A stretch of 64,000 nucleotides of DNA from Acidobacteriota bacterium (lineage in GTDB: Bacteria > Acidobacteriota > Terriglobia > Acidiferrales > UBA7541): assembly GCA_003225295.1 (NCBI GenBank), contig QHYZ01000056.1:1-64000 (forward strand), written 5' to 3'. The translations under genes were made by a program, and so were the position numbers. Under the pieces are notes generated by a model. It ran no database searches. It saw nothing but the letters and a program-made list of their open reading frames with translations, and had not been told where the DNA came from. Shown piece by piece: positions 3,223 through 30,290 of this stretch (position 1 is the first letter of the stretch; the number at the start of each line of letters is the position of its first letter).

Positions 3223-5334
3223 TTACGGCACGAGCATGACGGGGGCCTGCCAAAACGCGCCCTTCTGTCCGGTTGGGTCTAACACGGTCACCTGGCAGTC
3301 ATACTTGCCTGGCGCAAGCTGACTGAGAGCAATGCTGAAGCTGAGAGGCATCGTTTTCAGCCGATTATTCAGCCCACCCGTCACTTCAATCGGTTGCGTT
3401 TCGAACGCTTTCGTCTGAGCGCGGTAGAAACCCACAAATGCGATTAGCGGCTGAACGCTTGGTGCGCCCTGCTCGTACGCTTGAAGATAGACATACATGT
3501 CCCGGCTTTTGCTGAACACCCGAGTTACGCTGGGAATCAATTTCTGACCATTCTGGACCAACGGGTTGACCGCCTCTTCTTTGTCTTTATCCTTATTCTT
3601 TGCCGCGTTATAGAGCGCCTCCTTGAGGTCGATGCGCTGGCTGCCCAGTACCACGGAGCTGATGGGAATTCTCTTTTCCTCTTTGTTCAGGTTGGGAATG
3701 ACAAAACTGGTTTGATAAGTCCCGATTCTCCCGGTTTCGGCATCCCGGGCAAGAAACTTGATCGTATATTTCCCGGGGAGAAGCGTGAACCCAGTGTCGT
3801 ATTCAATCGGCCGCTTGGATAATTCGAATGCCGTGCGATCGCTCAGCTTGATATTCACCTTGTCGCGCACATTGGTAACCGTCATGCCTCCGTAGTCGTC
3901 TTTGATCTCACCGATGAAATCGATGAGGGTGCGTTCGGCGCCGCCACGCTTGGCAATGGCAAGTTCCCGTCCTGGGATCTTCACAACGATGGGGACGAAA
4001 TATTCGGCCCGATTCAACTGGAAGTAATCTATTTCCATCGCGATGGTGAGTTCCGTAATCGGGTCGTCCAGCATCAGCGCATCTTCAAGTTGCCGTTCTT
4101 TATCGGCAGCGGTGAATTTGCTGAACTGTTTCGCGGCGTAATAGCCCTGGCGATAATCCAGATTGGCGGACAAGTTCGAGTTCAACGAGATTTTGATGCG
4201 CCGGAATTTTCCGTCTTGAGCCGCATTGCTGGTGTAATACCCCAGGATGTAGTAGCTCGAAACGGTTTGCTGGGCCTCGACGATTCCCCTGGTCAGGTCG
4301 TTATAGTCGAGCAGAGCCTTTCCGCCGGTATCCCCGGCGAGCGCATAAAGCGTGTCCTGCGACTGCTGAAAGTTCGTTGTTACCGCCAGTGCCGAGGCTC
4401 CGGAATACATCCCCATGTTGCCCGGCGAACCTTTCGTGGCGTCTCCCAGGGGGGCTTGGGCCACCAAACCGCGCGCGTCGATGGGCCAAAACGACACACC
4501 GGCACGGATGGCGGCGTCGATCGTAGCGTGGAGTTGCGCCTGGTTGTCTGCGCCATTCAGCCTCAGACCGCTGGCGAAGTAGACCAGCGACTTCTTCTCG
4601 CTGAGCTGCCCCAACATTTTGGCGGCAGTTTCGAGCGCCGCCAACTGGCGGTCGGTGTTGAAGATGTTGAACTCGCTGTCGTCCTGACCGAAAGCTGCTC
4701 CGGTATCGGAAGTGCTGGCGTCGTCTGTGGATTCATCCGATCCTTGGCCTTCTCCTACAATCAACGTTGCGATGACGCTCAACAGCCGGTTACGGTCACC
4801 GGTGAAATCGAGAAGTACGTCGACAGCGCCGCCCGAATATCTAAGGATGGAGACCAGATCCGCTGATGTCATCTGCGTCCTGATGAATTTCTGCGCCGCG
4901 GCCAGCGCACGTAACTGGTCCGAAGGCGGCATGGCACTCATGTCGAAGTACAGCGCCAACAGACGGCGGTCTTTGTATCGAATGTTCCCAGGCGTCTCGG
5001 GCGAAATTCGAGTCCTCGGAAGGTCATGGTAGATCTTGATATCTTCAGGCTTGGATGGAGCGGCGGGCGCGGCGCTCTGAGCCTCCGGCAGTTCCTGGTG
5101 TTCGCAGAAACGGATTGCCTGCGGCACGCCGTTCTCGGCCACAGTGAAATCCTTCGCCGTCAAGCCCTCAATGGGGTTCCCTTTCTTGTCCTTGACCACC
5201 ACCGTCTCGACGACTAACTGAGTGCTAACGGCGATCTTAGCCGTCCCTTTACCTTCAGGCGGAGTGTTCTGCCCGGTCTGCTGCGGAGCGGCAGCCAGCG
5301 TCCATAACAACAATGCGGCAATGACACCTCGCAT
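3223..5334 (-). CDS. VWFA-related acidobacterial secreted protein (TIGR03436 type)
   Basis: The protein has 703 residues, with a signal peptide at about 1-17 (MRGVIAALLLWTLAAA). An N-terminal beta domain follows, with the family phrase VVVKDKKGNPIEGLTAKDFTVAENG. A von Willebrand factor A-like fold spans about 120-340 (LLALYFDMSAMPPSDQLRAL; later KSLVYFASGLR). The canonical DxSxS MIDAS motif appears only as DMSAM, so metal binding may be altered. The long C-terminal half is beta-rich and not assigned. The start is 3 bp after the stop of the receptor gene upstream, and its GAGG ribosome site lies inside that gene's end, so translation is probably coupled. This is the last gene of the minus-strand run beginning with blaI. 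Export to the periplasm or cell surface is expected; no precise function is known for the family. Confidence 0.87.
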   Translation of the reverse strand: MRGVIAALLLWTLAAAPQQTGQNTPPEGKGTAKIAVSTQLVVETVVVKDKKGNPIEGLTAKDFTVAENGVPQAIRFCEHQELPEAQSAAPAAPSKPEDIKIYHDLPRTRISPETPGNIRYKDRRLLALYFDMSAMPPSDQLRALAAAQKFIRTQMTSADLVSILRYSGGAVDVLLDFTGDRNRLLSVIATLIVGEGQGSDESTDDASTSDTGAAFGQDDSEFNIFNTDRQLAALETAAKMLGQLSEKKSLVYFASGLRLNGADNQAQLHATIDAAIRAGVSFWPIDARGLVAQAPLGDATKGSPGNMGMYSGASALAVTTNFQQSQDTLYALAGDTGGKALLDYNDLTRGIVEAQQTVSSYYILGYYTSNAAQDGKFRRIKISLNSNLSANLDYRQGYYAAKQFSKFTAADKERQLEDALMLDDPITELTIAMEIDYFQLNRAEYFVPIVVKIPGRELAIAKRGGAERTLIDFIGEIKDDYGGMTVTNVRDKVNIKLSDRTAFELSKRPIEYDTGFTLLPGKYTIKFLARDAETGRIGTYQTSFVIPNLNKEEKRIPISSVVLGSQRIDLKEALYNAAKNKDKDKEEAVNPLVQNGQKLIPSVTRVFSKSRDMYVYLQAYEQGAPSVQPLIAFVGFYRAQTKAFETQPIEVTGGLNNRLKTMPLSFSIALSQLAPGKYDCQVTVLDPTGQKGAFWQAPVMLVP

Positions 5335-5337
5335 GGT

Positions 5338-8300
5338 TCAGAACCTCAAGCGCAGTGTGGTTTCGAGGCTGCGCATGGAATTGGCCGTCGCTGGCAATCC
5401 AAATTGCGTGCTGTTAACGGTCGCATTCCAACTGGTAAAAGTGACATGGTTCAGAAGGTTGGTGGAGTCCATCCGCAAATCGAGATTGAATCGACCATCC
5501 AAACGGAAGGTGCGCGCGATCGCAGCATTCAAGGTGAATTGAGCAGGGCCGATGATCGAGTTTCTTCCCGCGCTTCCCCATTGGCCCGGGAGAGGAGCCG
5601 TGTAAGCCGCCGGATTCAAGAACAAACCCGATGGGGCCGTGTAAATTGGCGCGCCCGTGTAGTCTGGCCGGATGCTTCCGGTTACCCCCGTACCCGGCAC
5701 CGCTGCAAGATAGATGGGTGTCTCGGGAAGACCGCTGCCGACTGCGATCTGGGTGAGGAAGGTCCACTCTTTGAAGAGCATCCCCTTCCAGCCGTTCAAC
5801 AGCGTTTTTCCTCCGAGTCCCAAGCCCGTGGTGTACTGCAGCTGGGTGTTCAGAAGGTGGCGCTGATCGAAAGTCGAAAGCCCCCGTTCGGCTCTCAAAT
5901 CAAGCCAGTTCTGCGCGATGGTAGGGGAGTTCTGGCTGGCGCTGTGGCTTGTTCCACCCAACACCACGGTAGCGGGACCAGACGAACTCGGCTGCGTGAT
6001 TTGTGTGGCGGCAAGAGCTCCCTGGCCTCCCAGGGCCGAATCATCATCGATGGATTTCGAAAAAGTGTACTGCAAGGTGGCCGTAAGACCATTACGCAAC
6101 CGTCGGCGTAGCTGAATTTGGCCAGCTTCGCGGGTCGAATTGCCATGCGAGGCGAGGTAAGCAAATCCGATGGGACAGCTTGGGCACGGATTCGATGCCC
6201 CGATCGGAACAGTATTGGGCAGGAATTCCTGAACTCCCCGCGTCCCTTTGATGCCCAGATATGTTGCGGACAGTTGCAGCGCGCCGGGCAGGTCGCGTTG
6301 TATAGAGAACTGCCAGTTTTGCGAATAACCGACACGAAAATTCGGGTCGACTGCGAAGGTGTTCGGCGTGACTGAGGAACAAGTGTTGAATCCATTGGCC
6401 ACCGTGAGCGGGCATGTCGGGCCGTTTTCGACGCTCAGACTCTTCGAGAGCGGCGCCTGCTGCGCCATTTGTAGAGAGATCGTTTGATAAACGGAAGTGT
6501 CAGAGTAGATTCCATACCCCGCGCGAACTAAAAGTGAGGACCCCGAGATCGGACGCCAAGCGATTCCGACACGCGGCTCAATAAGGCGCTTGTCGGTATG
6601 AATGAGAGAATCTGGGTATCTTTGGCCCGTCAGCGGCCCAACCGGATCGGTTGCTACAACCGGCGCTGCCGCCGCGAAATTCCGGGCGATGTCCAAATTT
6701 ACCAAGCGGCCATACAATTCCGTAATGGGTGCACCGTATTCCCATCGGATTCCCGCGTTTAGCGTGAATTGCGGACTCATTCTCCAATCATCCGTGAGGT
6801 AGGCGTCGTAAACGGATTCGCGAAAGTATTTATCAGCGTTGCCGAAAGCGATTGAACTGGTGTCCGGAATTCCCAGCAGAAAGTCGGCAAAATCCGAGCC
6901 ACCTACCCCAACGCCATTGGCGCTTCCCTGAGTAGCCGCGCCCGTGAAAGTAAACGTGCCTCGCGGATCTTGTTGAGACAGGTAATTGAACTGCTGTCTC
7001 CGGAAATCACCACCAAACCGGAAGTTGTGACGGTTGAAATTCCGTAGCATGGAATAGGACAACGCGCTGGTCTGGTTGCGATCGAATGCGCTCTGAGCAT
7101 CGGACAATGCTGCCACACCGCTCGAGAAGGCGAGGCTCGGCGGCCCCCAGTTCATTGGATCTTGGCTATTGCCGGCTATTCCCGCTTCTCCGGAAACATT
7201 TTCGCGATTGGCCCAGTATGGCTTGATCCGCGTAGACAACCGGCTAAACCGGTACCCCAGATTCAGGAAAAGCTCTTGGTTGAAGCGGTGCGACCAATGA
7301 ATGCCGGTATTGATGCCCAGCATATCCGTCGCATCCAGAAAGTCGAACAGGTTTGGGCTGTCTGTTCGCGTGCTCAGGAATGCAAAGTCGCCATAGAGTT
7401 GATTCTTGCGGTTGAGTGTCTTATCGAACCGTGATTCGAAAGCATCTTGATGCTTGTTGCTGATGATTGGAATTTGGTAGTTGTACCGAGGATTCCCGGC
7501 GACGTTTGGCAACGGATAGAAATTCAACAAAGCTTGCGCTTGGGGGCTGATGTGGCTCTGTGGAATCGTGTTTCCGGGAAACGGCAATCCCGTTGCCGGA
7601 TCGAACACTGGATTCAACGCCTGTGAGAAATCTCCGTCGCGTTCGGCCAAATTCGGCACCAGTGCGGACTGCGTGGTGGCATCGCGGTCTCGCGTCCATT
7701 GGTAGCCCACAAAAAAGTTAGGACCGTGCTGGAACAAATGGGGAATTCTCAGCGGCCCGCCCAACGTCAGCACACCCGTCACTCGGTTGTAACTGGCCTT
7801 GGGTGTGTTTTGCCCACTCAAGGAAAAAGGCCGGGCATCCAACCCCGCGTTGTCCAGGATCATGCCGATTCCGCCGTTATACAGCCCTTTCGCGCCGCTG
7901 CGATTATTGCCAAACGCCGCAAATTGCGCGAACGGTGAAGCAGCTCCGTTATTTACACTGCCATTGATGAGCAGGCCGTCGGAGGCGAGTTGGTTGAGAT
8001 CCTCTTGGGATGTCTTGATCTCAGGATCCTTGTTGTCCTGCGGTGTTGTTTGTTCGCTCTTGGCCTGTGGAGCCGCAACGCCGGCGGGAGAAACTGCCGA
8101 CGTGATCTCGGCCTTGACTTGGTCGAGTGGCAGCATCTTCAATTCCCATTTCGCGGCAGGCGCGTCCGGCGCAATCGCCACATCCTGTTTGATCGTCGAA
8201 AAGCCCGTCATCTTGACTTCAATTGTCCACGCTCCGTCTATCAAGTCAGGAAACGAATAGAGGCCTTGTTGGTCGGTGATGGTGCTCAATTCTTTGCTGC

Positions 8301-8451
8301 CCTGAGTGGCCGTTACCGTTGCTCCTGGAACCGGTAAGCCGCCGAAGGTGACCTGCCCGTGGTATTCCGAAGCTGCTAGCACGCTGGCGTTGGCCAGCCA
8401 CGCCATGGCGCAGAAAAGACGGAGGTAGTTGTTAATCTGCGGCCATAACAT
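5338..8451 (-). CDS. Oar-like TonB-dependent receptor with carboxypeptidase-regulatory domain
   Basis: The protein has 1037 residues. A signal sequence at about 1-27 is followed by a CarboxypepD_reg-like beta-sandwich near 28-105 (VTFGGLPVPGATVTATQG, then TITDQQGLYSFPDL). A proline-rich linker and a poorly conserved plug region follow at about 150-230. The large beta-barrel begins near 235 with LTLGGPLRIPHLFQHG and ends in LETTLRLRF, a typical aromatic outer-membrane C-terminus. Family members import bulky substrates across the outer membrane or act in surface protein handling. An alternative start is the internal Met16. The gene sits 18 bp downstream of a TIGR03435 gene and 3 bp upstream of the VWFA gene. 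Its first codons lie at the edge of the 142-bp repeat also found at 9405-9546, so the 5' end may have been remodelled by duplication. Confidence 0.88.
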   Translation of the reverse strand: MLWPQINNYLRLFCAMAWLANASVLAASEYHGQVTFGGLPVPGATVTATQGSKELSTITDQQGLYSFPDLIDGAWTIEVKMTGFSTIKQDVAIAPDAPAAKWELKMLPLDQVKAEITSAVSPAGVAAPQAKSEQTTPQDNKDPEIKTSQEDLNQLASDGLLINGSVNNGAASPFAQFAAFGNNRSGAKGLYNGGIGMILDNAGLDARPFSLSGQNTPKASYNRVTGVLTLGGPLRIPHLFQHGPNFFVGYQWTRDRDATTQSALVPNLAERDGDFSQALNPVFDPATGLPFPGNTIPQSHISPQAQALLNFYPLPNVAGNPRYNYQIPIISNKHQDAFESRFDKTLNRKNQLYGDFAFLSTRTDSPNLFDFLDATDMLGINTGIHWSHRFNQELFLNLGYRFSRLSTRIKPYWANRENVSGEAGIAGNSQDPMNWGPPSLAFSSGVAALSDAQSAFDRNQTSALSYSMLRNFNRHNFRFGGDFRRQQFNYLSQQDPRGTFTFTGAATQGSANGVGVGGSDFADFLLGIPDTSSIAFGNADKYFRESVYDAYLTDDWRMSPQFTLNAGIRWEYGAPITELYGRLVNLDIARNFAAAAPVVATDPVGPLTGQRYPDSLIHTDKRLIEPRVGIAWRPISGSSLLVRAGYGIYSDTSVYQTISLQMAQQAPLSKSLSVENGPTCPLTVANGFNTCSSVTPNTFAVDPNFRVGYSQNWQFSIQRDLPGALQLSATYLGIKGTRGVQEFLPNTVPIGASNPCPSCPIGFAYLASHGNSTREAGQIQLRRRLRNGLTATLQYTFSKSIDDDSALGGQGALAATQITQPSSSGPATVVLGGTSHSASQNSPTIAQNWLDLRAERGLSTFDQRHLLNTQLQYTTGLGLGGKTLLNGWKGMLFKEWTFLTQIAVGSGLPETPIYLAAVPGTGVTGSIRPDYTGAPIYTAPSGLFLNPAAYTAPLPGQWGSAGRNSIIGPAQFTLNAAIARTFRLDGRFNLDLRMDSTNLLNHVTFTSWNATVNSTQFGLPATANSMRSLETTLRLRF

Positions 8452-8585
8452 TGAATACCCCGCCCGGCGCTAATTCTCCGAAGGCCTTTCCACATGATCG
8501 ATGACCAGAACCTCCACCGGGCCTTTTTGTGGTTCCAGTCTTAGCCCAAGCTGTTCCTGAATCGCCGTGAAGATGGAAGGCCCGG
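8444..8585 (-). repeat. Direct repeat copy 1 (3' end of TIGR03435 gene plus start of receptor gene)
   Basis: These 142 bp match 9405-9546 with about five mismatches counted by eye, at an offset of 961 bp. The repeat covers the last about 115 bp of the TIGR03435 gene, the short spacer and the first few bases of the receptor gene. It is a signature of tandem duplication. Confidence 0.85.
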
Positions 8586-9387
8586 GTGGGGGAGTGTCGT
8601 CAGTCCCTTGCTGGCCAACTGTCGGAGTTCGGTTCTCATCTGGCGTCCACTGCAGTGTAAAATCATAGTTGCCTTTGAGCCCGGTCTTGTCGAGAACGGG
8701 GCGGCCCAGTTGCTGCTGTGATAACATCCGCACCAGGAACGCGATAGGAACGCCTTGACCTGTTAACAGGCCCCTTCCAAAGTGCATGATGTCCCCGTGG
8801 CCGTGGCCCTCAAGATCTTTCATTCCGTTGGGGTAGGTATCGCCGGGTTTTGCCTCCTGGACTTTGGGACCGCCCTTTGCGATGACCAGCACATACGCTG
8901 GAAGTTCTTTGCTTTCGCGATGGAGTGTCAGCTGGAAGCGGTCCACCAAGAGCGCCTGAAGCATTGGTTGCTGTTCAACACTACGTTGATCGAAGGTCAG
9001 CTTGCGCAGCTTATCGGCTACGGTACCGTCCAATTTCGCCTCAACGTTGTATGTTTCAGCGTTGAGCCACTTGGGCGCTCCTGAGATCTGGTAGTCTTCG
9101 ACACCATACGCCATTCGAATGAGCATCTGCAGTGTGATATTTTTTGCAGTGAACCCGTCCGGCCGGAAATCCCAGATGATCATACCGCCGCTACCGAACT
9201 TGCGTGGTCTGATCGAAGCGACCTCGTACACAGGCACAGTAGTTGTGTTCGAGGCCTGGAACTCAGCCCGGCTTTGCGTTGCGAGTAGGACGCCAAACAC
9301 GACCGGCACGGCAACCGCGCCCAATCCAGCCGCGCTGAGCAATAACCTTCTACTGAAATCCAGTGTGCGAGCAATACGCTCAGTCAT
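8470..9387 (-). CDS. Stand-alone TIGR03435-family protein (copy D)
   Basis: The protein has 305 residues. One N-terminal transmembrane or signal segment lies near 12-34 (LLLSAAGLGAVAVPVVFGVLL). The TIGR03435 domain runs from about 47 to the end: VYEVASIRP, then DGFTAKNITLQMLIRMAYGVEDYQISGAPKWL in outline, DRFQLTLHRESKELPAYVLV, VLDKTGLKGNYDFTLQW, and the terminal PSEN. The ATG at 9387 was preferred because residues MTERIARTLDFSRRLLL align with an internal stretch of the M56 fusion at 12293-14185. An upstream ATG at 9498 would add 37 residues overlapping the neighbouring gene. The domain is common in Acidobacteriota, its function is unknown, and the N-terminal segment places it outside the cytoplasmic membrane. 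It looks like a fusion gene that lost the protease half. Confidence 0.88.
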   Translation of the reverse strand: MTERIARTLDFSRRLLLSAAGLGAVAVPVVFGVLLATQSRAEFQASNTTTVPVYEVASIRPRKFGSGGMIIWDFRPDGFTAKNITLQMLIRMAYGVEDYQISGAPKWLNAETYNVEAKLDGTVADKLRKLTFDQRSVEQQPMLQALLVDRFQLTLHRESKELPAYVLVIAKGGPKVQEAKPGDTYPNGMKDLEGHGHGDIMHFGRGLLTGQGVPIAFLVRMLSQQQLGRPVLDKTGLKGNYDFTLQWTPDENRTPTVGQQGTDDTPPPGPSIFTAIQEQLGLRLEPQKGPVEVLVIDHVERPSEN

Positions 9388-9404
9388 GACATGGGCAATC
9401 CTTT

Positions 9405-9546
9405 CATAACATTGAATACGCCGCCCGGCGCTAATTCTCCGAAGGCCTTTCCACATGATCGATGACCAGAACCTCCACCGGGCCTTTTTGTGATTCAAGT
9501 CTTAGCCCAAGCTGTTCCTGAATCGCTGTGAAGATAGAAGGCCCGG
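9405..9546 (-). repeat. Direct repeat copy 2 (3' end of upstream TIGR03435 gene)
   Basis: This copy partners 8444-8585. It covers the end of the gene at 9431-10330 and carries the same bases that form the receptor's first codons in copy 1, here out of context. A shorter related block (taattctccgaag) also ends the fusion genes near 10346 and 12293. Confidence 0.85.
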
Positions 9547-10330
9547 AAGAATCAGGAGGGCTGTCAGGCCCCTGGCCGCCGTCTCTCGTCCCTTTAAACA
9601 TCGGAGCTCGGTTCTCCTCTGGTGTCCACTGCAGCGTGAAATCATATTTGCCGGTGAGCCCGGACTTATCGAGAACGGGGCGGCCCAGTCGCTGCTGTGA
9701 TAAGTGCCGCACCAGGAGCGCGATAGGAACTCCTTCACCTTTTAAGAGGCCCCATCCAAAGGTCATTCCAGTGGGGTCATTGTCGCCAGGATGTGTCTCC
9801 TGAAGTTTGGGACCTTTCTTCGCGATGACCAGCGCATATACAGGAAGTTCTTTGGTTTCGCGGTGGAGCGTCAGCTGGAAGCGGTCGCCTAGAAGTGCCT
9901 GAAGCATGCGTCGGTATTCAACCAGGCGCTGATCGAAGCTAAGCTTTTGCAGCTCATCAGCTACGGATTTGTCCGCTTTCGCCTCAATATCGTATCGTTC
10001 AGAATCGAGCCAGGCGGGTGCTCCTGAAATCTGATTGTCTTCGACTTCGTATGCCTCTCGAATGAGCCCTTGCAGCGTGACGCCCGTTGCGGTGAACCTT
10101 TCGATCCAAAACCCAAGCCCCAACATATGGCTGCTGTATTTGTTTGGTTTGATTGAAGCGACCTCGTACTGAAGCGCCGATGCACTTGTGTTTTGAACCC
10201 GCGACTCTGCCCGACTATGCGTTGCGAGTAACAGGCCAGACATAACCGGCACGGCGACTGCCGCGAATCCAGCTACAGCCAGCAATGGCTTTCTACTGAA
10301 ATCCCGTTTCGAAACAACATCCTCGGTCAT
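9431..10330 (-). CDS. Stand-alone TIGR03435-family protein (copy C)
   Basis: The protein has 299 residues with the same architecture as copy D. A membrane segment lies near 15-33 (LLAVAGFAAVAVPVMSGLLL). The TIGR03435 domain follows from about 47 (YEVASIKPNK, NQISGAPAWL, DRFQLTLHRETKELPVYALV, VLDKSGLTGKYDFTLQW), ending VIDHVERPSEN. The last about 40 residues are nearly identical to copy D because of the recent tandem repeat, while the middles have diverged more. The gene starts 15 bp downstream of the stop of the fusion gene at 10346-12217 and is followed after 43 bp by copy D, so co-transcription is likely. The protein is expected to sit outside the cytoplasmic membrane, anchored or released. 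Molecular function is unknown. Confidence 0.88.
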   Translation of the reverse strand: MTEDVVSKRDFSRKPLLAVAGFAAVAVPVMSGLLLATHSRAESRVQNTSASALQYEVASIKPNKYSSHMLGLGFWIERFTATGVTLQGLIREAYEVEDNQISGAPAWLDSERYDIEAKADKSVADELQKLSFDQRLVEYRRMLQALLGDRFQLTLHRETKELPVYALVIAKKGPKLQETHPGDNDPTGMTFGWGLLKGEGVPIALLVRHLSQQRLGRPVLDKSGLTGKYDFTLQWTPEENRAPMFKGTRDGGQGPDSPPDSSGPSIFTAIQEQLGLRLESQKGPVEVLVIDHVERPSEN

Positions 10331-10345
10331 GTACCCCGCCGGCCG

Positions 10346-12217
10346 TTAATTCTCCGAAGCCTTCTCGATACTTTCGATTACCAGGGTCTCTACCGGCCCT
10401 TTTTTCGCTTCCAGTTTTAGGCCCAGCTGCTCCTCGAGCGCTGTGAAGATCGACGGCCCCGAGGAATCTAGCGGAGGTGCATCGGCGGTTGCGTGGGCAT
10501 CATCTGCGCCCTTGGACATCTGGGCGGTCTGGTCTGGCGTCCATTTCAGCGTCCAATCATAATTACCCTTGAGCCCGGTCTGGTCTATGACCAGCCGTCC
10601 CAATTCGGGTTGCCCTGACAGTAGGTCCGCTAGAAGGTCGATGTTTATGTTAGTAGCGCTGAGTTGGCCGGGGCCCATCATTCTGATTCCGCGGAACCCC
10701 TTCTTCGGGGCAGAAGCGCCATCCGAGGCAGGTTGCGGAACTTCCGTCTGGATCAGTTTTGGACCACTCTTCGCTACAACCAATGCATAAACTGGAAGGT
10801 CTTTGGTCTGGTGACTCACCTTCAGATTAAAGCGATCCGCCAGCAGCGCCTGGACCATCAATCGGACTTGTCTCGCTTGCTCTTCAAAGGGAAGCTTCTG
10901 CAATTTGGCGGCTACTGAGGCCTCTTCTTTTGCCTCGATATCGTATTTTTCGGAATTAATCCAGCTTGGTCCTCCCGAAAGCTGATTGTCTGATTTGATG
11001 TCGTAAGCAAACTTAATAATTCCCTTTAGTGTTTCGCCCTTTGTCGTGAACTTGCCGGGAGACATGAAGAGTTGAACCATATTGTCTCCGGGGCGACTCG
11101 GCTTAATGGTGGCCACCTCAAACGGTTGCACCGCGGGACCGTCCGCTTCTTGCAATTGTGCAAGAAGTCGCGGTGGGCTGTTCGCCAGGCCCAGCACGAC
11201 TGGTACGGCGACAGCGGTTGAGCAGATTGTGAGGAGCAGCAGCCTCTTGCCAAAACCCAATCTCTCTGCCACGCGCTCGGACATGATCCGCACAATCCGT
11301 CTCTTGAGATCGGCGCCCGTTACTCCCGATACGCACGCCAGCGGAGCTTCCACACAAAATTCGCAGGTCTTCAAAATACTCTCGGCATAGACCTGCCGTT
11401 CGCTGCCCATTTCCAGGACCTCTTCGTCGCAGGCGCGCTCGCGTTCCTCCAGCAACCGCGCCCCCATCCACCAAACTAACGGGTGAAACCAGAAGATAGC
11501 TTCGACCACCATGTGGACCGCAGCGGCCAGATTGTCTCGACGACGCACATGCCACAGCTCATGAGCTAGAATTGCTTCCAGGTGCGCGTCTTCTAGGCGC
11601 CCGGAAATGCCTTCGGGCCATAGTAAGACCGGACGGATTATGCCGAATATCCCAGGCTCAAGAGCAGCCCGTGACAAGCGCACCTCGATTCGTTTCGGCA
11701 TTTCGCCTACACGCTCAAGCCGTCGCAGCGCCACAACTTCGCGTCCCTCTCGCAATGGCAGGGCTTGCCGTACGGCTGCGGAAATCTGGCGCCAACGCAC
11801 ATACCACACGAGGAGCACTACTAGAAATCCGCCGAGCCACGTTGCAGCAAGAAGCGCCGGAAGCACACGGATCAGGTTCGGGGAGGCCGTCGAGGGAGTG
11901 ACCCGAGCAATCACCGAGATCGTCGGCTGCGTAAAGGGCCGGCTGACCTCGTCAATCGCAGCGTACACCCCGGCTTGCGCCCGTGCGGAACCGTAAGACC
12001 AAGGTAAGTGGCTTCCCATACCTACCAACACTGAAAAGGGGATTAGAAATTTCACCGACGCTGCCAGCCAGAGCCAGTAGCGAGCCCGGGCCTGATTCTT
12101 TCGTAAAATCAAAGTTAATAAACCCACCGTGATGGCAAATAGCGTCGATTGCCACAAGTGATTGCCCAGCGCTGGCGCAATGGCCATACACATTGCAGAC
12201 AAATATTTCAGGATCAT
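10346..12217 (-). CDS. M56 BlaR1-type membrane metallopeptidase fused to a TIGR03435 domain (copy B)
   Basis: The protein has 623 residues. Residues 1-150 contain several transmembrane helices (NHLWQSTLFA, YWLWLAASVKFLIPF, LGGFLVVLLVWYV). The gluzincin motif HELWH lies at 219-223 in AILAHELWHVRRRDN, followed by FWFHPLVWWMGARLLEERERACDEEVLE with further candidate metal ligands. This matches peptidase family M56 (BlaR1/MecR1). A further transmembrane segment lies near 320-340, then a TIGR03435 domain from about 358 to the C-terminal SEN. In BlaR1 and MecR1 the C-terminal sensor is a penicillin-binding domain; here TIGR03435 takes that place. Inference: a signal bound by the extracytoplasmic TIGR03435 domain activates the cytoplasmic protease, which inactivates a BlaI-type repressor. 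It lies 75 bp after the paralogue at 12293-14185. Confidence 0.9.
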   Translation of the reverse strand: MILKYLSAMCMAIAPALGNHLWQSTLFAITVGLLTLILRKNQARARYWLWLAASVKFLIPFSVLVGMGSHLPWSYGSARAQAGVYAAIDEVSRPFTQPTISVIARVTPSTASPNLIRVLPALLAATWLGGFLVVLLVWYVRWRQISAAVRQALPLREGREVVALRRLERVGEMPKRIEVRLSRAALEPGIFGIIRPVLLWPEGISGRLEDAHLEAILAHELWHVRRRDNLAAAVHMVVEAIFWFHPLVWWMGARLLEERERACDEEVLEMGSERQVYAESILKTCEFCVEAPLACVSGVTGADLKRRIVRIMSERVAERLGFGKRLLLLTICSTAVAVPVVLGLANSPPRLLAQLQEADGPAVQPFEVATIKPSRPGDNMVQLFMSPGKFTTKGETLKGIIKFAYDIKSDNQLSGGPSWINSEKYDIEAKEEASVAAKLQKLPFEEQARQVRLMVQALLADRFNLKVSHQTKDLPVYALVVAKSGPKLIQTEVPQPASDGASAPKKGFRGIRMMGPGQLSATNINIDLLADLLSGQPELGRLVIDQTGLKGNYDWTLKWTPDQTAQMSKGADDAHATADAPPLDSSGPSIFTALEEQLGLKLEAKKGPVETLVIESIEKASEN

Positions 12218-12292
12218 TGCGCTTTTTCCTTTCTCTCAAACCCCCAGGGAATTCTCTCGCTCTTCCGTGACATCGTTGTCCCGTGCCCGCCG

Positions 12293-14185
12293 CTAATTCT
12301 CCGAAGGCTCTTCGACATGATCGATGACGAGAACTTGCCCAGGACCTTTTTGCGATTCCAGTTTCAGCCCAAGCTGCTCCTGAATCGCCGTGAAGAGTGA
12401 AGGCCCCGAAGATTCGGGCGGGGTAGTGCTACCGGTACCTTGCTGGTCGTCTTCCGCCCCTTTAAACATGGGACCTTGGCTCTCGTCTGCTATCGTCCAT
12501 TGCAGTGTGAAATCATAGCTGCCCGTGAGCCCCGTGTTGTTCAGAACGCCGCGGTTCAGAATGTTTTCCGACAACAGTCGTACCAGTTTCGCCATCGGCA
12601 GCCCTTGACCTATTAGCTCGCCCCTTCCTCTATGGAACCTTCCCAGCTTGAACATGCCCGCTCCGCTGCCGCCGTCAGCCCCTTGGAATCCGTTCGGATA
12701 AGTGTCGCCGGGTTTGGCCTCCTTAAGTTTGGGGCCATTCTTTGCAATGACCAGGACATACCCGCCAAGCTGTTTGGTTTCGCGGTGGAGCGTCAGCTTG
12801 AAGCGGTCGGCTAAAAGCGCCTGAAGCATGTGTCGCCTTTCAACGTTACGTTGATCTTCACTAAGCTTACGCAATCCATCGGCCACAGCACTGTCCATTC
12901 TTGCCTCAATATCGTATTTTTCAGAGTTGAGCCAATTCGGCGCTCCGAGGATTTGATTGTCGTTGACTCCGTATGCCGTTCGAATAAGCATCAGCATCGT
13001 GACGCTCGTTGCACTGAACCCATTCTGTTCGAACATCATTTTGAACAATCCGTTGTCAGATTTGTTTCGTTTGATCGAGGCGACCTCATATACAGTTGCA
13101 TTGGCGCCTTTGGTCTGGGGCTGCGACCCAGCTCGGCTTGCCGTTCCGTTTACCAAGCCAAAGACGACAGGTAGTACGACGACCACCAATCCACCCAGGC
13201 TGAGCAACAGCTTCCTACTGAAATTCAATCTGCGTGCGACACCCTCGGTCATGATACGAACAATCCGTTTCTCGAGATCGGCACCCGTAACTCCGGACAC
13301 ACAGTCCAGCGGAGATTCCACACAGAATTCGCATATCTTCAAAATACTCTCGGCATAGACATGGCGATCGCTGCCCGATTCCAAGACTTCTTCGTCGCAG
13401 GCGCGCTCGCGCTCCTCCACCAACCGGGCTCCCAACCACCAGACCAACGGGTGAAACCAGAAGATGGCTTCTACCACCATGTGCATTGAAGCGGCCAGAT
13501 TGTCGCGACGGCGTACGTGCCACAGTTCGTGGGCAAGAATGGCTTCCAGATGCGCATCGTCGAGACGTTCAGAGATGCCTTCCGGCCACACCAAAACGGG
13601 CTGGGCAATGCCGAAAATCCCAGGTTCTAGAGAAGCTCGCGAGGATAGCAGTTCGATTCGTTGCTGCATTCCTGTAATACATCCGATCCGACGCAGCGCT
13701 TCCACTTCGCGCCCTTCCCGCAAGGGCACCGCTTCACGAATGGCCACGGAAATCCCCCGCCAACGCAGGTACCACACGGAAAGGACCACCAGGAATCCGC
13801 AGAGCCACGCGGCCGCAAGCAGCCCCGGAAGCACATGGATCACACTCGGGGAAACTGTTGAGGGAGTGGCCCGGGAAATCACCGTCATCGCCGGCTGCGA
13901 AAAGGGCTGGCTGACCTCCTCCATCGCAAAGTACAAGCCGGCTTTCGTTCCTGCCGAGCCGCGTGACCATGGGAGATGGCTTCCAATGGCGACCAGCAGC
14001 GAAAAGGGAACTAGGAATTTCATCGACGCGGCCAGCCATAGCCAATAACGAGCCCGGGCGTGGTTGTTTCTCAAAATCAGTGTCAATAGTCCGGCTACGA
14101 CGGCAAATAGCGTCGACTGCCATAAGTGATCGCCCAGCGCTGCTGCGAAAGCGGTCCACGTCGCCGGCAAATATTCTGGAATCAT
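12293..14185 (-). CDS. M56 BlaR1-type membrane metallopeptidase fused to a TIGR03435 domain (copy A)
   Basis: The protein has 630 residues and is a close paralogue of copy B. Multiple N-terminal helices include LWQSTLFAVVAGLLTLIL and LLAAAWLCGFLVVLSVWYL. HELWH lies at 219-223, followed by EERERACDEEVLE. A transmembrane segment near 323-343 (KLLLSLGGLVVVVLPVVFGL) precedes a TIGR03435 domain from about 365, ending EEPSEN. The region just before that last helix (IMTEGVARRLNFSRKLLL) corresponds to the N-terminus of the stand-alone proteins C and D. The start codon overlaps the blaI stop (ATGA, 14182-14185), the standard coupling of blaI-blaR1 pairs. No penicillin-binding motifs (SxxK, KTG) were seen in the C-terminal half, so a beta-lactam sensor role is unlikely. 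Confidence 0.9.
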   Translation of the reverse strand: MIPEYLPATWTAFAAALGDHLWQSTLFAVVAGLLTLILRNNHARARYWLWLAASMKFLVPFSLLVAIGSHLPWSRGSAGTKAGLYFAMEEVSQPFSQPAMTVISRATPSTVSPSVIHVLPGLLAAAWLCGFLVVLSVWYLRWRGISVAIREAVPLREGREVEALRRIGCITGMQQRIELLSSRASLEPGIFGIAQPVLVWPEGISERLDDAHLEAILAHELWHVRRRDNLAASMHMVVEAIFWFHPLVWWLGARLVEERERACDEEVLESGSDRHVYAESILKICEFCVESPLDCVSGVTGADLEKRIVRIMTEGVARRLNFSRKLLLSLGGLVVVVLPVVFGLVNGTASRAGSQPQTKGANATVYEVASIKRNKSDNGLFKMMFEQNGFSATSVTMLMLIRTAYGVNDNQILGAPNWLNSEKYDIEARMDSAVADGLRKLSEDQRNVERRHMLQALLADRFKLTLHRETKQLGGYVLVIAKNGPKLKEAKPGDTYPNGFQGADGGSGAGMFKLGRFHRGRGELIGQGLPMAKLVRLLSENILNRGVLNNTGLTGSYDFTLQWTIADESQGPMFKGAEDDQQGTGSTTPPESSGPSLFTAIQEQLGLKLESQKGPGQVLVIDHVEEPSEN

Positions 14186-14568
14186 TGTGACTTATCCTTG
14201 CGTTCAAGCTTCCGGAGAGTTTTCTGGGCTTCCTTTACATCCTCTAGCGTGAGTTTGCCGGACTCGATCAGGTGTGCCATTACGGGTTGAGTGTGTCCCC
14301 CGAACAAGGCCAGCAGGTCATCAATCAACCTTCGCTCGGCGGCATTGCGGGAGACCGTGGCCTCGAAAATGTGAAAGTTGCCGACCTTCTTGATGCGTCG
14401 CACGGCGCTTTTCCCTTCCAGACGATAAACGGTTGTCTGGATAGTCGTGTAGGCTGGTCGGTTTTTTTCGGGGAACGTTTCCTGAATCTCGCGGATGGAG
14501 GCCTTGCCCTGCGTCCACAGTGCCTCCATGATCTGAAGTTCGAGCTTGGTTAGTTTGGGTTCGGCCAT
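14182..14568 (-). CDS. blaI: BlaI/MecI/CopY-family transcriptional repressor
   Basis: The protein has 128 residues, the usual length for the family. A winged helix fills residues about 5-80: LTKLELQIMEALWTQGKASIREI, then YTTIQTTVYRLEGKSAVRR. A helical dimerisation tail follows. Such repressors bind as dimers to promoter operators and are cleaved after activation of their M56 partner. The ATG at 14568 has an AGAGG ribosome site, and an upstream frame extension to 14679 is not conserved-looking. The gene overlaps the first M56-TIGR03435 gene by 4 bp and heads the seven-gene minus-strand run to 3223. The likely regulon is its own operon, including the receptor and VWFA genes. Confidence 0.92.
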   Translation of the reverse strand: MAEPKLTKLELQIMEALWTQGKASIREIQETFPEKNRPAYTTIQTTVYRLEGKSAVRRIKKVGNFHIFEATVSRNAAERRLIDDLLALFGGHTQPVMAHLIESGKLTLEDVKEAQKTLRKLERKDKSQ

Positions 14569-14620
14569 TGGTCCTCTACTATGCACGTATGTAAACCTAC
14601 TATAGCAATAGGCACCGTGC
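14569..14620 (-). promoter_or_regulatory. Candidate blaI promoter/operator with 21-bp direct repeat
   Basis: On the plus strand CTACTAT occurs at 14576-14582 and 14597-14603, exactly 21 bp (two helical turns) apart; each copy is followed by GCA or AGCA. On the coding strand a TTGCAC box lies upstream near 14618-14623. The position directly before the ribosome site fits autoregulation by BlaI, but the repeat is direct rather than the usual inverted TACA/TGTA arrangement. Confidence 0.3.
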
Positions 14621-14682
14621 AAGTGTCTTTTGTGGCCCCCCGTTGCGGGCCATTGTTCCCTCCTGAGGAACAGTGGCACACC

Positions 14683-14930
14683 ATGTCACCCTTTAGGCGC
14701 GTTCCTTGGCACAGGGAGTTCCGGAGTAAGCACAAAGAGAGCGGGTTAACCGTCGTTGCGTTTCAGTGGATGAAGATGCGTGGAAATCGGTCGAGCCATT
14801 ACCGGAAGAGAAAAAAGTCCACTATCCAGTCGTGATTGGCGATGGGGACTTCGCGAAGTTAGTCGGCGTTACGGCGTTGCCGGTAATGCTACTGATCGAC
14901 CGCGATGGTGAGCGCGCGGACTCGGGACGT
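14683..14930 (+). pseudogene. Decayed TlpA/thioredoxin-like (redoxin) fragment, frameshifted
   Basis: Two frames together spell a TlpA-like domain. In one frame, WHREFRSKHKESGLTVVA resembles the segment after the active site. A one-step frame change near 14757-14766 continues as VSVDEDAWKSVEPL, then YPVVIGDGDFAKL, then GVTALPVMLLIDRDG, the cis-proline and strand region of the fold. The N-terminal part with the CxxC motif is not recognisable and the 3' end drifts out of frame. No start or ribosome site fits. I read it as a relic rather than an expressed gene. Confidence 0.6.
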
Positions 14931-14948
14931 GGTTGTGTTCCGCAGAAG

Positions 14949-15368
14949 TCAGGACACCCCTACCAGGGCCGGCTTGGTCTGAGCATTGGTTCCATTCTGC
15001 AGATTTTGGCGGTCGATGGCTGACCACACGATGCGTTCTGTTTCGGCCGAATCAGGCGGGCATGCCAGGTAATCAAAGGCTCCGGCGCGAAGAGCGGTGA
15101 GATAGTGGTCCCATTCGGCGAACCGGGATAGTACGACGACTGGGGTGGGATTCACTGCTGCGATCACTCCCCGGAAATCGCCATCCGGCAGAGTGTCATG
15201 GCAAAACACCACTCTAAACTTCTGTCGGGCCAGGAAGCTTCGTGCTTCGACGAATTCCTTGCAGTAGATTGAGCCTAGACCACATCTCTCGACTGCACCG
15301 CTAATCTTTTGATGATGGTCTGCTTCGGGAGAGATCACCAATACCTGGTCGATGCTGCTCATGTTCAT
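14949..15368 (-). CDS. Divergent response-regulator receiver-like protein
   Basis: The protein has 139 residues and consists of a single CheY-like domain: QVLVISPEADHHQKISGAVE, then FRVVFCHDTLPDGDFRGVI, then PVVVLSRFAEWDHYLTALRAGAFDYLACP. In CheY the phosphoacceptor Asp lies four residues before the conserved Pro. Here His occupies that position and an Asp follows, so phosphorylation may be shifted or lost. The lysine expected after the fourth strand is also not clear (DYLACPP). ATG 15368 is preferred over a GTG at 15392 because GGTAGAG precedes it. There is no output domain, and no histidine kinase lies nearby. A single-domain regulator or pseudo-receiver role is inferred. Confidence 0.7.
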   Translation of the reverse strand: MNMSSIDQVLVISPEADHHQKISGAVERCGLGSIYCKEFVEARSFLARQKFRVVFCHDTLPDGDFRGVIAAVNPTPVVVLSRFAEWDHYLTALRAGAFDYLACPPDSAETERIVWSAIDRQNLQNGTNAQTKPALVGVS

Positions 15369-15868
15369 AGTCTCTACCTTTCCCAGCGACACGCTGCATA
15401 CGAGAACGGAAAGAAATTGGTTTCGAAGGGGGAAAAGATGATGGCAAGGAGCCTGCTATTTGTCCATAGAACTAAAGCTGATTTTGCAATTTTTTTTCAT
15501 GGGGCACGCCCCACTCGGGAATAGCGGGTGCCCCGTGCCGAACCGAGAAGGCGCGCGGCCTTGGCTAAACGCGCTGCTCCAAAAATAGGCGTAAGTCCTT
15601 TGAATTCAATGCGGCGTTCCCGCTAAACCGCCTTCCTTCCTGCTCGGTGGTACGCCAGGGGGCTGAAAACGAGATCTCAGTGTCCGGCTTAGCCGGGCCA
15701 TTGGCGCGCGAACACCCAAGATTGGCGTCTTCTGGGCTGACCGGCACACCGTGGGGGCGACGCACAGCACCGATATCGCCGCGCCGTGATCAGATTTGCG
15801 GACGGGTTGGACCAGGACAAGCCCATCACATGATGTAAGGATCGAAGCGCGACTCGAAACTCCGCCGC
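15369..15868. other. Intergenic stretch with one long palindrome
   Basis: No gene is recognised in these 500 bp. CATGGGGCAC (15498-15507) pairs with GTGCCCCGTG (15528-15537), a 10-bp stem with one wobble and a 20-nt loop that itself contains GC-rich inverted bits. T-runs precede rather than follow the stem on the plus strand, so it is not a clear terminator. It could be a REP-like extragenic palindrome. A second small stem, CCGGC/GCCGG, is at 15684-15696. Confidence 0.4.
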
Positions 15869-17524
15869 TCATGGCACTTCACCGCCTGAAGGGATCAGTT
15901 TCAGGACTACGTTTTTTCGTGTACCTTCGTCCAGTTGCACGATCTCCCCGCGAGTGCCGTAAGACTTCATGAAATCAGGCTGACGAACATCTTCCTGCAA
16001 TTCTTCGAAGGCCAGCACCGTGTACTTCCCGGGATTTAGGCCGCGCAAGCTGAAATGTCCGCTCTCATCAGTTGTATCTCGCTGGAAAAGATCCGAGCGC
16101 GTTCTGTGCTCCGCGCTGGGAACATCCACAACGGTCGCATTCGCGATCGGCTGGCCGTTGCCGTCGACAACTCTCCCTGTAATACTCGCTCCGTTTGCGC
16201 TGATTACTACTTCCAGGAACGTCTGGGGAAGAATTGGGAAACCAGAATCGGCCACATCCCGCCCGTCGAGATGGACCGATTTTGTGATGTAATCGGGCAG
16301 ATCATTGGATCTGGCCACAACCAGCAGCTGGTAATTGCCTCCGGGCACGTTCTTCAGTTCAAAAGTTCCGTCACTGTTCACATTGGAACTTGTCGGAAGG
16401 TCCATCGCGCGTTCCTCTACAAGTTCGGCACCTTGCTCCTCGACAGAGACGAGGGTCACGCTCAATTGTGTCCAATCGAATTTCTGGCCCGTATCTAGGC
16501 TGAATTTTCCCCGAACCTGTCCACCGGCCTCTGGCTGAAGTCGCAATCCCTCGACGTGAGCATTACTGACTTCGATCGGCTGACCCAAGCGGAGCATCCG
16601 TATGGCTGGCTGACCGCCTTCAAATGTGACCATGATTAGCCTTGCCACATAGGACCCGGGTAAGACGTTTGCAAATTCGAATCTGCCGCCCTCGCCAAGC
16701 TCTTGCGGAGCCACCTGCAAGCCCCCACGGCCCTTCGCTTGCAACATGATCTGAGCCATGCCGCCCTGGCTCGGGACCCCCGTTACGGACCCGCTGACGC
16801 GGTACGCCCGGCCCGTCAGGAGGCCAAAGTTAATCCGTGTTTCTCCCCCCGCATGAATCTCCACGGCAACAGCTTGGTCCTCATCCAAAACTCCCGGATA
16901 GTGAGTGGTTAGCAATATCGATGGATCCTTCCCGTTCTTGTTCTCTTTCAGACCCGGCGGTGGGGACGTTGGCGGGGGAGAGGCAGTAATCTTATAGCGT
17001 CCCGCTCGCAAATCGGAGATACGAAATTCCCCAAGATCGTTCGTGGCTGCATTGCCGTAGTTGCGGGAATTCCGTTCCGCTCCCATAGAGCCAGCCCTGG
17101 TCGCTGTGACGCTAACACCACCGATCGGGTCTCCGTCCAAGTCTGCGATCTTCCCGGTGATGACGGCGGCAGGTTGCATGTGCAAGATCAAGTCGTTCTT
17201 GCCGGACGCCGGTTCGACCGAAATGGTTATTCGGCGGTTGGACTGCACAAATCCGGGGCGCTCGACGACCACGACGTACTGTCCAGGTTGCACGCCATCA
17301 ATGGTGAATTGGCCTTGCGCATCGCTAATTGCCGAATAGTTTGAGCCGGTGGGCCTTTTTCGTCCATACAACTGCACGTTTGCCTTCCTTATCGGTTGCC
17401 CGTCCGGCTCCTTTAAGACCTTGCCTTGTATGCTGGGCGTAGAGGCTTGTTCGGGCGGGCTCGCTTGAATTGCACCAGCGATTGGAACCAAGATCAGAGA
17501 AAATGCCATGATCAGGAGTTTCAC
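15869..17524 (-). CDS. Secreted protein with several carboxypeptidase-regulatory-like repeats
   Basis: The protein has 551 residues. A signal peptide (GTG start, MKLLIMAFSLILVPIAGAIQA) is followed by at least three beta-sandwich units of the CarboxypepD_reg type: residues about 32-115 (GKVLKEPDGQPIRKANVQLYG, then AQGQFTIDGVQPGQY), about 117-200 (GKIADLDGDPIGGVSVTATR, then LGEFRISDLRAGRYKI), and about 450-530 (GRVVDGNGQPIANATVVDVP, then SGHFSLRGLNPGKYTVLAF). A related unit in the middle ends GTFELKNVPGGNYQLLV. No enzyme or barrel domain is attached. GGAGG sits 7 nt before the start. Such proteins are exported and thought to act as structural or binding modules at the envelope. It is separated from the TPR gene by 70 bp on the same strand. 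Confidence 0.85.
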   Translation of the reverse strand: MKLLIMAFSLILVPIAGAIQASPPEQASTPSIQGKVLKEPDGQPIRKANVQLYGRKRPTGSNYSAISDAQGQFTIDGVQPGQYVVVVERPGFVQSNRRITISVEPASGKNDLILHMQPAAVITGKIADLDGDPIGGVSVTATRAGSMGAERNSRNYGNAATNDLGEFRISDLRAGRYKITASPPPTSPPPGLKENKNGKDPSILLTTHYPGVLDEDQAVAVEIHAGGETRINFGLLTGRAYRVSGSVTGVPSQGGMAQIMLQAKGRGGLQVAPQELGEGGRFEFANVLPGSYVARLIMVTFEGGQPAIRMLRLGQPIEVSNAHVEGLRLQPEAGGQVRGKFSLDTGQKFDWTQLSVTLVSVEEQGAELVEERAMDLPTSSNVNSDGTFELKNVPGGNYQLLVVARSNDLPDYITKSVHLDGRDVADSGFPILPQTFLEVVISANGASITGRVVDGNGQPIANATVVDVPSAEHRTRSDLFQRDTTDESGHFSLRGLNPGKYTVLAFEELQEDVRQPDFMKSYGTRGEIVQLDEGTRKNVVLKLIPSGGEVP

Positions 17525-17594
17525 GAAGGGCCTCCGAGCTGCTACCTAGCCAACCGGAGCGAACGTGGCGTCACAAATCCGAGGGCGAAAGAAT

Positions 17595-18536
17595 CTAGCT
17601 CGGTAGCAAAGTAAGATTCTTCCTGGCCAGCGGTACTGCATATGCGGCGGCGGGATTGTGCGCGATTGCCGTTGAAGCCTTGGAGTAGTACTCGAAGGCT
17701 TTGTCTTTCTCGCCCAGCTTCTGGTAGGTCTGGCCAATCATGCATTGGATGAATGGGTCGTTCTGGTTGGCCTTTAGCAGTTCCTCGAGGGCCGCCTGGT
17801 AATCTCCCGCATAGAATGCGACATAGCCTTGAAGGTAGGGAAGGAACTGCGCCTGCTCCGGATTGGTTCCCTTGCCGAACACGTTCTTCGCCGCAGCGAT
17901 GTGTTTTTGTGCCTCGGCTTGATTCCCTCGCCGGGCAGCGATGCGGGCCTGGGCGTGCTCCCAACGGAACTCCCAAAGGTCTTGGCGAGCCGGTTTGATA
18001 TCTGGTTCCTTCAGTCCGGTGTCGTGCCCGAGCTGATACCAGTGATATGCGGCGTCCAAATCCCCTGATTCAATGCAAACGCGAGCGGCCTCGTCGGCAA
18101 TCTCGCCCTGCTGAAAAAAGTTCTTCTCGCTTCCGTAGATGTCGAAGACCTGTTGTTCGTGCTCGACGGTTTTCTTGCAGTTTCTCTCAAAGGCGTACGA
18201 CATGGCCATCGCCCTTTGCGCCATGGCCTTGTGCTCGGGCGTGTCCGCAACTTCGATTCCTCGGGCAAAATACTTGCGGCCCTCCTGGCCTCGCCCCTGG
18301 AGGTCCAGCACACTCCCCGCCGCGATGTTGGCGGCAACGGAATTCGGCGAGGTCTCTAGAGTCCTGCGATACAGCGCCAGGGCGTCGTCCAACTTTCCTT
18401 CGCGCATCAATTGCTGACCCTGCCGGATGAACTCGGGCTGCTGCTGTTGGCTACCCGGCGTTTGCGCCAGTAGAGGTGCGAGAGAAGCCGAAACGACGAG
18501 AAAGGCTCGGGGAAATATGGCCATGGTCACTTTCAT
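17595..18536 (-). CDS. Exported tetratricopeptide-repeat protein
   Basis: The protein has 313 residues. A signal-like N-terminus (MKVTMAIFPRAFLVVSASLAPLLAQ) is followed by TPR-type helical pairs: AFIRQGQQLMREGKLDDALALYRRTLETSPN-like near 40-70, then further repeats to the end (LPYLQGYVAFYAGDYQAALEELLKAN, CMIGQTYQKLGEKDKAFEYYSKAS). The ATG at 18536 gives a proper signal peptide; an upstream in-frame start at 18629 would add 31 residues of unlikely sequence. TPR proteins are scaffolds for protein interaction, so a partner cannot be deduced. The downstream carboxypeptidase-regulatory-repeat gene lies 70 bp away on the same strand and may be co-transcribed. Confidence 0.82.
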   Translation of the reverse strand: MKVTMAIFPRAFLVVSASLAPLLAQTPGSQQQQPEFIRQGQQLMREGKLDDALALYRRTLETSPNSVAANIAAGSVLDLQGRGQEGRKYFARGIEVADTPEHKAMAQRAMAMSYAFERNCKKTVEHEQQVFDIYGSEKNFFQQGEIADEAARVCIESGDLDAAYHWYQLGHDTGLKEPDIKPARQDLWEFRWEHAQARIAARRGNQAEAQKHIAAAKNVFGKGTNPEQAQFLPYLQGYVAFYAGDYQAALEELLKANQNDPFIQCMIGQTYQKLGEKDKAFEYYSKASTAIAHNPAAAYAVPLARKNLTLLPS

Positions 18537-18708
18537 GAGCGCGATTATCCCACAAAGCCGTTGGCGTGACGTTAACATCGTCGTTCCGCTAACAACAGCA
18601 GGCAGACTATCGACGGCCGAGACATCCACAACTTGCTTTCGGAATCGTATGGCACCGAGGCCATGAATGAATCGATTTAGACCCGGGCAACATCCTGCGA
18701 AGTTGCAG

Positions 18709-30271: not shown

Positions 30272-30290
30272 GAACTCACCCCTATGCGGT

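Follow-up and report, generated by a model that had tools for sequence, protein, structure and literature searches.

What does a repressor-protease switch of the BlaR1-BlaI kind control when its sensors carry DUF3738 in the place of a penicillin-binding domain? This question is raised by seven genes on the minus strand of a 64,000-nucleotide stretch of DNA from a soil Acidobacteriota bacterium (contig QHYZ01000056.1, positions 1 to 64,000 of the forward strand), hereafter called the window. The genes code for a BlaI/MecI-type repressor, two fusions of an M56 metalloprotease with DUF3738 (TIGR03435), two lone DUF3738 proteins, an Oar-like outer-membrane barrel, and a VWA protein of the TIGR03436 family (VWFA in the gene orders below). 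From the end of blaI onward, the gaps between them are -4, 75, 15, 43, 18, and 3 base pairs (bp), where the 43-bp value depends on an ATG start at 9387 for the second lone DUF3738 gene, whose longest open reading frame (ORF) extends to 9498. An earlier note on this DNA had proposed this gene set, the shared strand, and the spacing, and all three are confirmed by the gene coordinates and family matches.

We give about an even chance to a model in which these genes form an autoregulated operon of the BlaR1/BlaI type, with DUF3738 as the sensor, that controls a module made of a plug-less barrel and its VWFA partner. The conservation of the gene order, the domains of the predicted sensors, an operator-like motif upstream of blaI, and the architecture of the barrel each bear on this model.

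A gene trio shared by one clade of barrels

With the window barrel (P0006) as the query, a survey of 396 Acidobacteriota genomes (E ≤ 1e-60) yielded matches that split into two groups. Twenty-seven genes in 24 genomes, that of the window included, score above 750 bits, and no further match exceeds 386 bits. We call the former group class 1 and the weaker group, which has about 46 genes by count of rows and includes a paralogue from the genome of the window, class 2. The class-1 set examined has 37 barrels (26 from the survey, 10 from a named collection, and that of the window), and the class-2 set has 15 (14 sampled genes and the paralogue, C316). Duplicate loci were dropped (L067, L068, L080, and L081), and L220 was also left out of the sets of DUF3738 tails and domains.

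All 37 distinct class-1 barrels have a DUF3738-containing gene immediately upstream and a TIGR03436 gene downstream. The barrel and VWFA genes are separated by -4 to 10 bp in 23 of 27 operons. The remaining 10 have a longest VWFA ORF that reaches into the barrel gene, and so the VWFA start is uncertain there. The runs include blaI in 18 of 37 cases and an M56 gene in 21, although genes further upstream may be missed in the six runs that start no more than 600 bp from the 5′ edge of the examined stretch. In 18 runs, blaI, the M56 gene, and the barrel gene are found on one strand. Occallatibacter savannae AB23 (locus L102), for instance, has the order blaI, M56-DUF3738, barrel, VWFA. The 19 runs that lack blaI comprise 15 with enough upstream sequence and four that are cut at a contig edge; the 15 consist of DUF3738-barrel-VWFA with neither blaI nor the operator described below. 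Judged from gene order, the core of the operon is therefore DUF3738-barrel-VWFA, and BlaI/M56 is optional. The earlier note had presented the BlaI-headed set as a unit and had proposed a survey of gene order in other Acidobacteriota. This survey upholds the DUF3738-barrel-VWFA part throughout, whereas the BlaI/M56 head is a feature of only some runs. None of the conditions that the note had named as refuting it came true, as far as sequence can address them.

The class-2 barrels are also followed by a TIGR03436 gene in 15 of 15 cases, and DUF3738, BlaI, and M56 are found with 0 of 15 in the stretch examined. The paralogue from the genome of the window (L167, G000:C316) is one such barrel-TIGR03436 pair, with no DUF3738 or BlaI within the 20 kb examined. 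When 87 barrels are placed in a tree, class 1 is a single clade (37 of 37, support 1.0). Classes 1 and 2 together also form one clade (support 1.0), where the single extra row is a fragment of the C316 gene. Because both classes fall in this one clade and carry TIGR03436, the barrel-VWFA pair appears to be an old module, one branch of which is marked by DUF3738.

At the level of genomes, TIGR03435 (E ≤ 1e-10) is present in 37 of the 396. All 24 class-1 genomes, which represent six families, encode DUF3738 (Fisher test 2e-29, uncorrected for relatedness), and no class-1 barrel in the sample comes from a genome without it. A class-1 barrel fragment with 96% identity is found in G015, a member of the genus of the window.

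These data also bear on the possibility that the two gene sets are mere neighbors, such that blaI-M56-DUF3738 controls only itself and the barrel and VWFA genes are transcribed separately. The 15 runs in which the barrel occurs without blaI would agree with this arrangement, as would the existence of blaI-M56-DUF3738 without a barrel. However, the 18- and 3-bp gaps of the window operon, the shared strand in 18 runs, and the lack of any promoter- or terminator-like match in the gaps (by a weak scan that missed the blaI promoter too) speak for a common transcript, and we consider separate control quite unlikely.

A proposed BlaI/M56-DUF3738 switch and its operator-like site

The first gene, blaI (14182-14568, minus strand), codes for a protein of 128 residues. 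Penicillinase_R (PF03965), the domain expected of BlaI/MecI repressors, is matched over the full length of this protein (residues 6 to 119, 86.8 bits versus a cut-off of 22.6), and its score against TIGR02698 (CopY/TcrY) is 55.2 bits, under the cut-off of 121.95. The next two genes on this strand code for M56-DUF3738 fusions. Copy 1 (12293-14185; 630 residues; PF05569 132.5 bits, PF12543 197.8 bits) overlaps blaI by 4 bp, and copy 2 (10346-12217; 623 residues; PF05569 143.2 bits, PF12543 201.3 bits) is 58% identical to it. Both proteins carry HELWH, and the corresponding HEXXH motif of BlaR1/MecR1-type M56 proteases is kept in 64 of 64 full-length homologues.

By analogy, the closest known switch is BlaR1-BlaI, or MecR1-MecI, of Staphylococcus and Bacillus licheniformis, where a repressor gene likewise adjoins a gene for a membrane metalloprotease of the M56 family whose C-terminal domain is extracytoplasmic. 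According to PMC9834060, BlaR1 cleaves BlaI directly. The predicted sensors of the window differ in that no transpeptidase match is found in them and DUF3738 replaces the penicillin-binding sensor domain, and they reach only 91-95 bits against blaR1_generic, whose cut-off is 400. In addition, the operon has no match to PBP2a, none of the seven products matches a beta-lactamase, and an outer-membrane barrel and a VWA protein are added. Although the BlaI and M56 matches are what a genuine BlaR1-kind switch for resistance to beta-lactams or cell-wall damage would provide, these differences render such a function highly improbable.

Two lone DUF3738 genes follow on the same strand, at 9431-10330 (299 residues; PF12543 216.3 bits) and at 8470-9387 (ORF open to 9498; PF12543 214.1 bits). 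Overall, four operon proteins score 198-216 bits for PF12543 and 219-244 bits for TIGR03435, for which the curated cut-off is 40. The N-termini of the lone proteins are collinear with the last M56 membrane segment (MTE...DFSRK.LL...VAVPV), and thus the two genes are probably 5′-truncated duplicates of M56-DUF3738 that have kept this segment. The genome as a whole has five TIGR03435 match rows, four of them inside the operon, eight M56 rows (two inside the operon), 28 TIGR03436 rows, and at least 105 barrel rows, with several per gene and 150 of 211 candidates scored.

TonB_C is the part of TonB that contacts TonB-type barrels. In two class-1 operons (L226 and L228), an M56 protein carries CarboxypepD_reg-TonB_C after the M56 domain, where DUF3738 sits elsewhere, and L228 also has a CarboxypepD_reg-TonB_C-DUF3738 frame. 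An M56-CarboxypepD_reg-TonB_C protein whose gene adjoins blaI is likewise encoded in the genome of the window (L171, G000:C143). These three proteins share with the window sensors an M56 protease encoded next to blaI and a periplasmic C-terminal extension, but the extension is TonB_C rather than DUF3738. Given this exchange, the constant neighborhood, and the one-way co-occurrence described above, DUF3738 is likely to be a periplasmic partner of the barrel/VWFA pair.

A putative double BlaI operator, RTAGTAG-N14-RTAGTAG, is located at 14576-14603 on the minus strand, 7 bp before the blaI ATG. It has no mismatches and is the only exact copy in the genome. Among 50 blaI upstream regions from loci found by likeness to the window M56-DUF3738 or DUF3738, 19 have pairs at 20-22 bp spacing, versus 18 of 10,000 random 130-mers from the same loci. 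We also built a matrix from 18 sites, each of which was scored by leave-one-out, and compared it with a null of 3,000 random stretches, which were drawn from these loci and could themselves contain real sites. The window site scores 36.6, whereas the 99% point of the null is 0.6. This point is exceeded by 37 of the 50 blaI upstream regions and by 0 of the 15 upstream regions of blaI-less class-1 runs, and only 17 of the 50 are clearly above the 99.9% point (28.7). By reading, a TTGAC/TTGC-like box precedes the operator pair in many blaI upstream regions.

Two further sites in the genome of the window have three mismatches each, versus four matches for a reversed control pattern, and the idea of a BlaI regulon beyond the operon was dropped on these counts. 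One of the sites is directly before another blaI gene (C178). The other, which is at chance level, is about 120 bp before a barrel gene that is cut by a contig end (L168, G000:C75; record 96767-96794).

In the model that we favor, BlaI would bind the double site beside its own start codon and repress the whole operon, predicted to form a single transcript. A change of state in the periplasmic DUF3738 of M56-DUF3738 would then cause M56 to cut BlaI, and the operon would be induced. The effectors would constitute a conserved envelope module, in which a TonB-transporter-like barrel that has no recognizable plug is joined by a VWA-type protein as its partner and by DUF3738 proteins acting on this barrel. 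The DUF3738 sensor would monitor whether the barrel/VWFA pair is free, occupied, or jammed, rather than detect a drug. Additional DUF3738 copies would either compete with M56-DUF3738 or act together with it.

Several observations weigh against this model. Thirteen of the 37 genomes with TIGR03435 have no class-1 barrel, among them four (G152, G161, G234, and G416) of the 28 sampled genomes whose DUF3738 matches are strong (E ≤ 2e-40). One genome (G031) has 53 DUF3738 matches and one class-1 barrel. Four genomes from the genus of the window (G016, G018, G022, and G024, which are 86-97% complete) have blaI-M56-DUF3738 with only weaker barrel matches. Because the set occurs in these relatives without a class-1 barrel match, BlaI/M56-DUF3738 is, by its distribution, a portable sensor that is not tied to class-1 barrels. 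A stricter, window-like M56 pattern fits only eight of the 64 homologues. Upstream of blaI, 13 of the 50 regions are under the 99% point of the null, as are four of the five regions that precede other blaI genes in the genome of the window (one passes). For the held-out blaI genes of class-1 operons, four of nine upstream regions exceed this point and five are under it, and by this measure blaI-headed operons that are more distant have a weaker operator-like pair. The exact pair is absent from all 14 newly tested upstream regions (nine class-1 and five from the genome of the window), and a consensus scan gave no sigma-70 promoter match before blaI.

The barrel, its VWA partner, and DUF3738

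The barrel gene (5338-8451, minus strand; 1037 residues) codes for CarboxypepD_reg (42.8 bits), a linker of about 90 residues, and a TonB-transporter-like beta-barrel (PF25183, 521.6 bits). Oar and Oar-like TonB-dependent transporters also have an N-terminal CarboxypepD_reg followed by such a barrel. In contrast to these relatives, class 1 has constant DUF3738 and TIGR03436 neighbors (37 of 37) and no recognizable plug. At E ≤ 0.1, Plug (PF07715) is matched in 0 of 37 class-1 and 0 of 15 class-2 barrels, versus 20 of 34 ordinary ones from these genomes and loci. The median length from CarboxypepD_reg to the barrel is 89 residues for class 1, 169 for class 2, and 147 for 35 others, where the class-2 fragment L160 is excluded from the 34 barrels of the Plug test and yet is counted among the 35 ordinary ones of the length comparison. 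Both results make it doubtful that the protein is a receptor in the TonB-dependent sense, as the earlier note had labeled it. An ordinary Oar-like barrel at 26282-30310 on the minus strand of the window, which served as a control, has a weak Plug match (20.2 bits versus a cut-off of 23.9).

An AlphaFold2 (AF2) model of the barrel has a mean predicted local distance difference test score (pLDDT) of 75 and a predicted template modeling score (pTM) of 0.67, with low confidence over most of residues 117-187 and block means of 27-48 across residues 111-190. The model aligns with TonB-dependent transporters at Z 18-22. Because these alignments begin at model residue 138-190, the class-1 barrels, which by sequence have no recognizable plug, may retain a reduced plug remnant. 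Residues 159-191 (GLLINGSVNNGAASPF...) have a mean identity of 0.65, versus 0.25 for residues 104-158, and are a candidate contact or gating segment.

The VWA gene (3223-5334, minus strand; 703 residues) starts 3 bp past the barrel gene. Its product scores 236.6 bits against TIGR03436 (acidobact_VWFA), above the curated cut-off of 81.25, and differs from the family in having about 300 residues past the family domain and a degenerate metal-binding motif. The DxSxS sequence of the metal-ion-dependent adhesion site (MIDAS) is replaced by FDMSAM, D-x-[ST]-x-M is found in 26 of 36 class-1 TIGR03436 rows, and none of the 32 class-1 rows listed has DxSxS. To judge from these motifs, the MIDAS is degenerate in the window protein and in most of its class-1 orthologues.

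A partner gene directly downstream of a barrel with CarboxypepD_reg, together with SusC-type transporters among the fold matches of the barrel, might suggest nutrient uptake. In such a system, a SusC-like importer would have a VWA protein as its partner instead of SusD, and binding of a periplasmic degradation product to DUF3738 would induce it through BlaI. We regard this as unlikely, since the barrel has no Plug match, no SusD-type match was found in the two class-1 VWFA proteins scanned, and the small gaps leave no space for catabolic enzymes inside the block (the flanks were without systematic annotation).

The DUF3738 domain itself is predicted with confidence. An AF2 model made from 115 of 119 non-redundant domains, with four left out, has a pLDDT of 91.1 and a pTM of 0.85. 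Among solved structures, a search by fold gave no DUF3738 relative at E ≤ 0.001, and a search by sequence gave only chance-level matches, the best of which is troponin I (E 0.096). This lack of a solved relative is not evidence of a new fold. The two halves of the domain can be aligned to one another (hhalign probability 67.6, E 5e-5, 94 columns), whereas eight controls are below 1%, and therefore DUF3738 is probably an internal duplication. We also considered an STN/secretin-type domain but do not claim it, as the hhalign probability for the halves is below 1% (with a narrow 12-sequence profile) and the pattern is suggestive by eye only. One of two weak rows in the fold search is the type IV pilus complex BfpBG (Z 2.3, 59 residues aligned), whose BfpB component we take to be a secretin.

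The C-terminus of DUF3738 is relevant to the main rival of our model, which is by analogy with Oar and PopC. The barrel/VWFA pair would export DUF3738 proteins, or proteins that carry DUF3738, with a C-terminal Asn as part of the recognition signal, and M56-DUF3738, as a tethered mimic of the substrate, would report whether the exporter is free. Where the domain end is visible (125 genes, 119 distinct tails), a terminal Asn is present in 108 of 125 genes and the stop is exactly at the domain end in 106 of 125, whereas seven of nine internal tandem copies have no Asn at this place. Seven M56-DUF3738-DUF3738 proteins (L087, L089, L071, L069, L079, L098, and L090) have an internal copy without the terminal Asn at the domain end. 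By eye, many free-standing copies have signal-peptide-like N-termini, and two carry a Redoxin domain. The ratio of one to two class-1 barrels to as many as 53 DUF3738 matches per genome would also suit an exporter with many substrates. According to PMC6434023, Oar of Myxococcus xanthus is required for the secretion of PopC. However, with a mean pLDDT of 89, the last DUF3738 residues may be no more than part of the fold, and among the internal copies two have PN at the domain end and some show QN a few positions further along. Moreover, Oar function needs a TonB box in the plug, again according to PMC6434023, and no plug is recognizable in class-1 barrels. For this last reason export is retained as a rival rather than as our preferred reading, and we consider it rather improbable.

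Within the BlaR1/BlaI-type model, a more specific arrangement is that the barrel has lost its plug and works with the VWA protein and with DUF3738 in trans, where DUF3738 might be a gate, a plug substitute, or cargo, and M56-DUF3738 would let the inner membrane read the state of the barrel and tune its expression through the cutting of BlaI. Such an arrangement would amount to a trans-envelope system of a new kind, and we propose it only tentatively. The contact between DUF3738 and the barrel, the signal that DUF3738 senses, the substrate that the barrel moves, and the direction of transport are all parts of it that we infer.

Surroundings and significance

Downstream of the operon, a convergent MacB/FtsX-type permease gene occupies 241-2844. 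Upstream of blaI, a stop-broken frame at 14713-14958 on the plus strand resembles, by eye, the C-terminal half of a thioredoxin-like protein and is a possible gene remnant between blaI and a short, stand-alone receiver-like ORF (14949-15392, minus strand). The latter has weak NCBIfam matches to response regulators and no Pfam match. Pfam likewise gave no match for an open frame at 14766-15023. The GC content is about 0.54-0.56 in the operon and at 15-20 kb (window 3223-20000), compared with 0.609 at 34001-64000.

In the open-access literature, we found no paper under the name TIGR03435 or DUF3738 and none that joins "VWFA-related" with Acidobacteria, and Acidobacteria, BlaI, and M56 occur together only under an unrelated title. 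BlaR and M56 have no occurrences in the passages searched in PMC7074687 and PMC3174227. The regulator is of a known kind, and its coupling to a barrel module, along with the clade of barrels without a recognizable plug, appears to be undescribed in this literature. The conserved gene order among relatives points to an undescribed cell-envelope system.

DUF3738/TIGR03435 is an expanded and uncharacterized family, with 53 matches in one sampled genome. It now gains a recurrent set of partners, a switch that can be tested, and a confidently predicted fold for which the searches gave no solved relative. If the model is true, class 1 would represent TonB-transporter-like barrels that form a natural clade and have no recognizable plug, in which gating and the direction of transport become testable, and proteolytic signaling of the BlaR1 type would extend from drug sensing to the monitoring of an outer-membrane machine.

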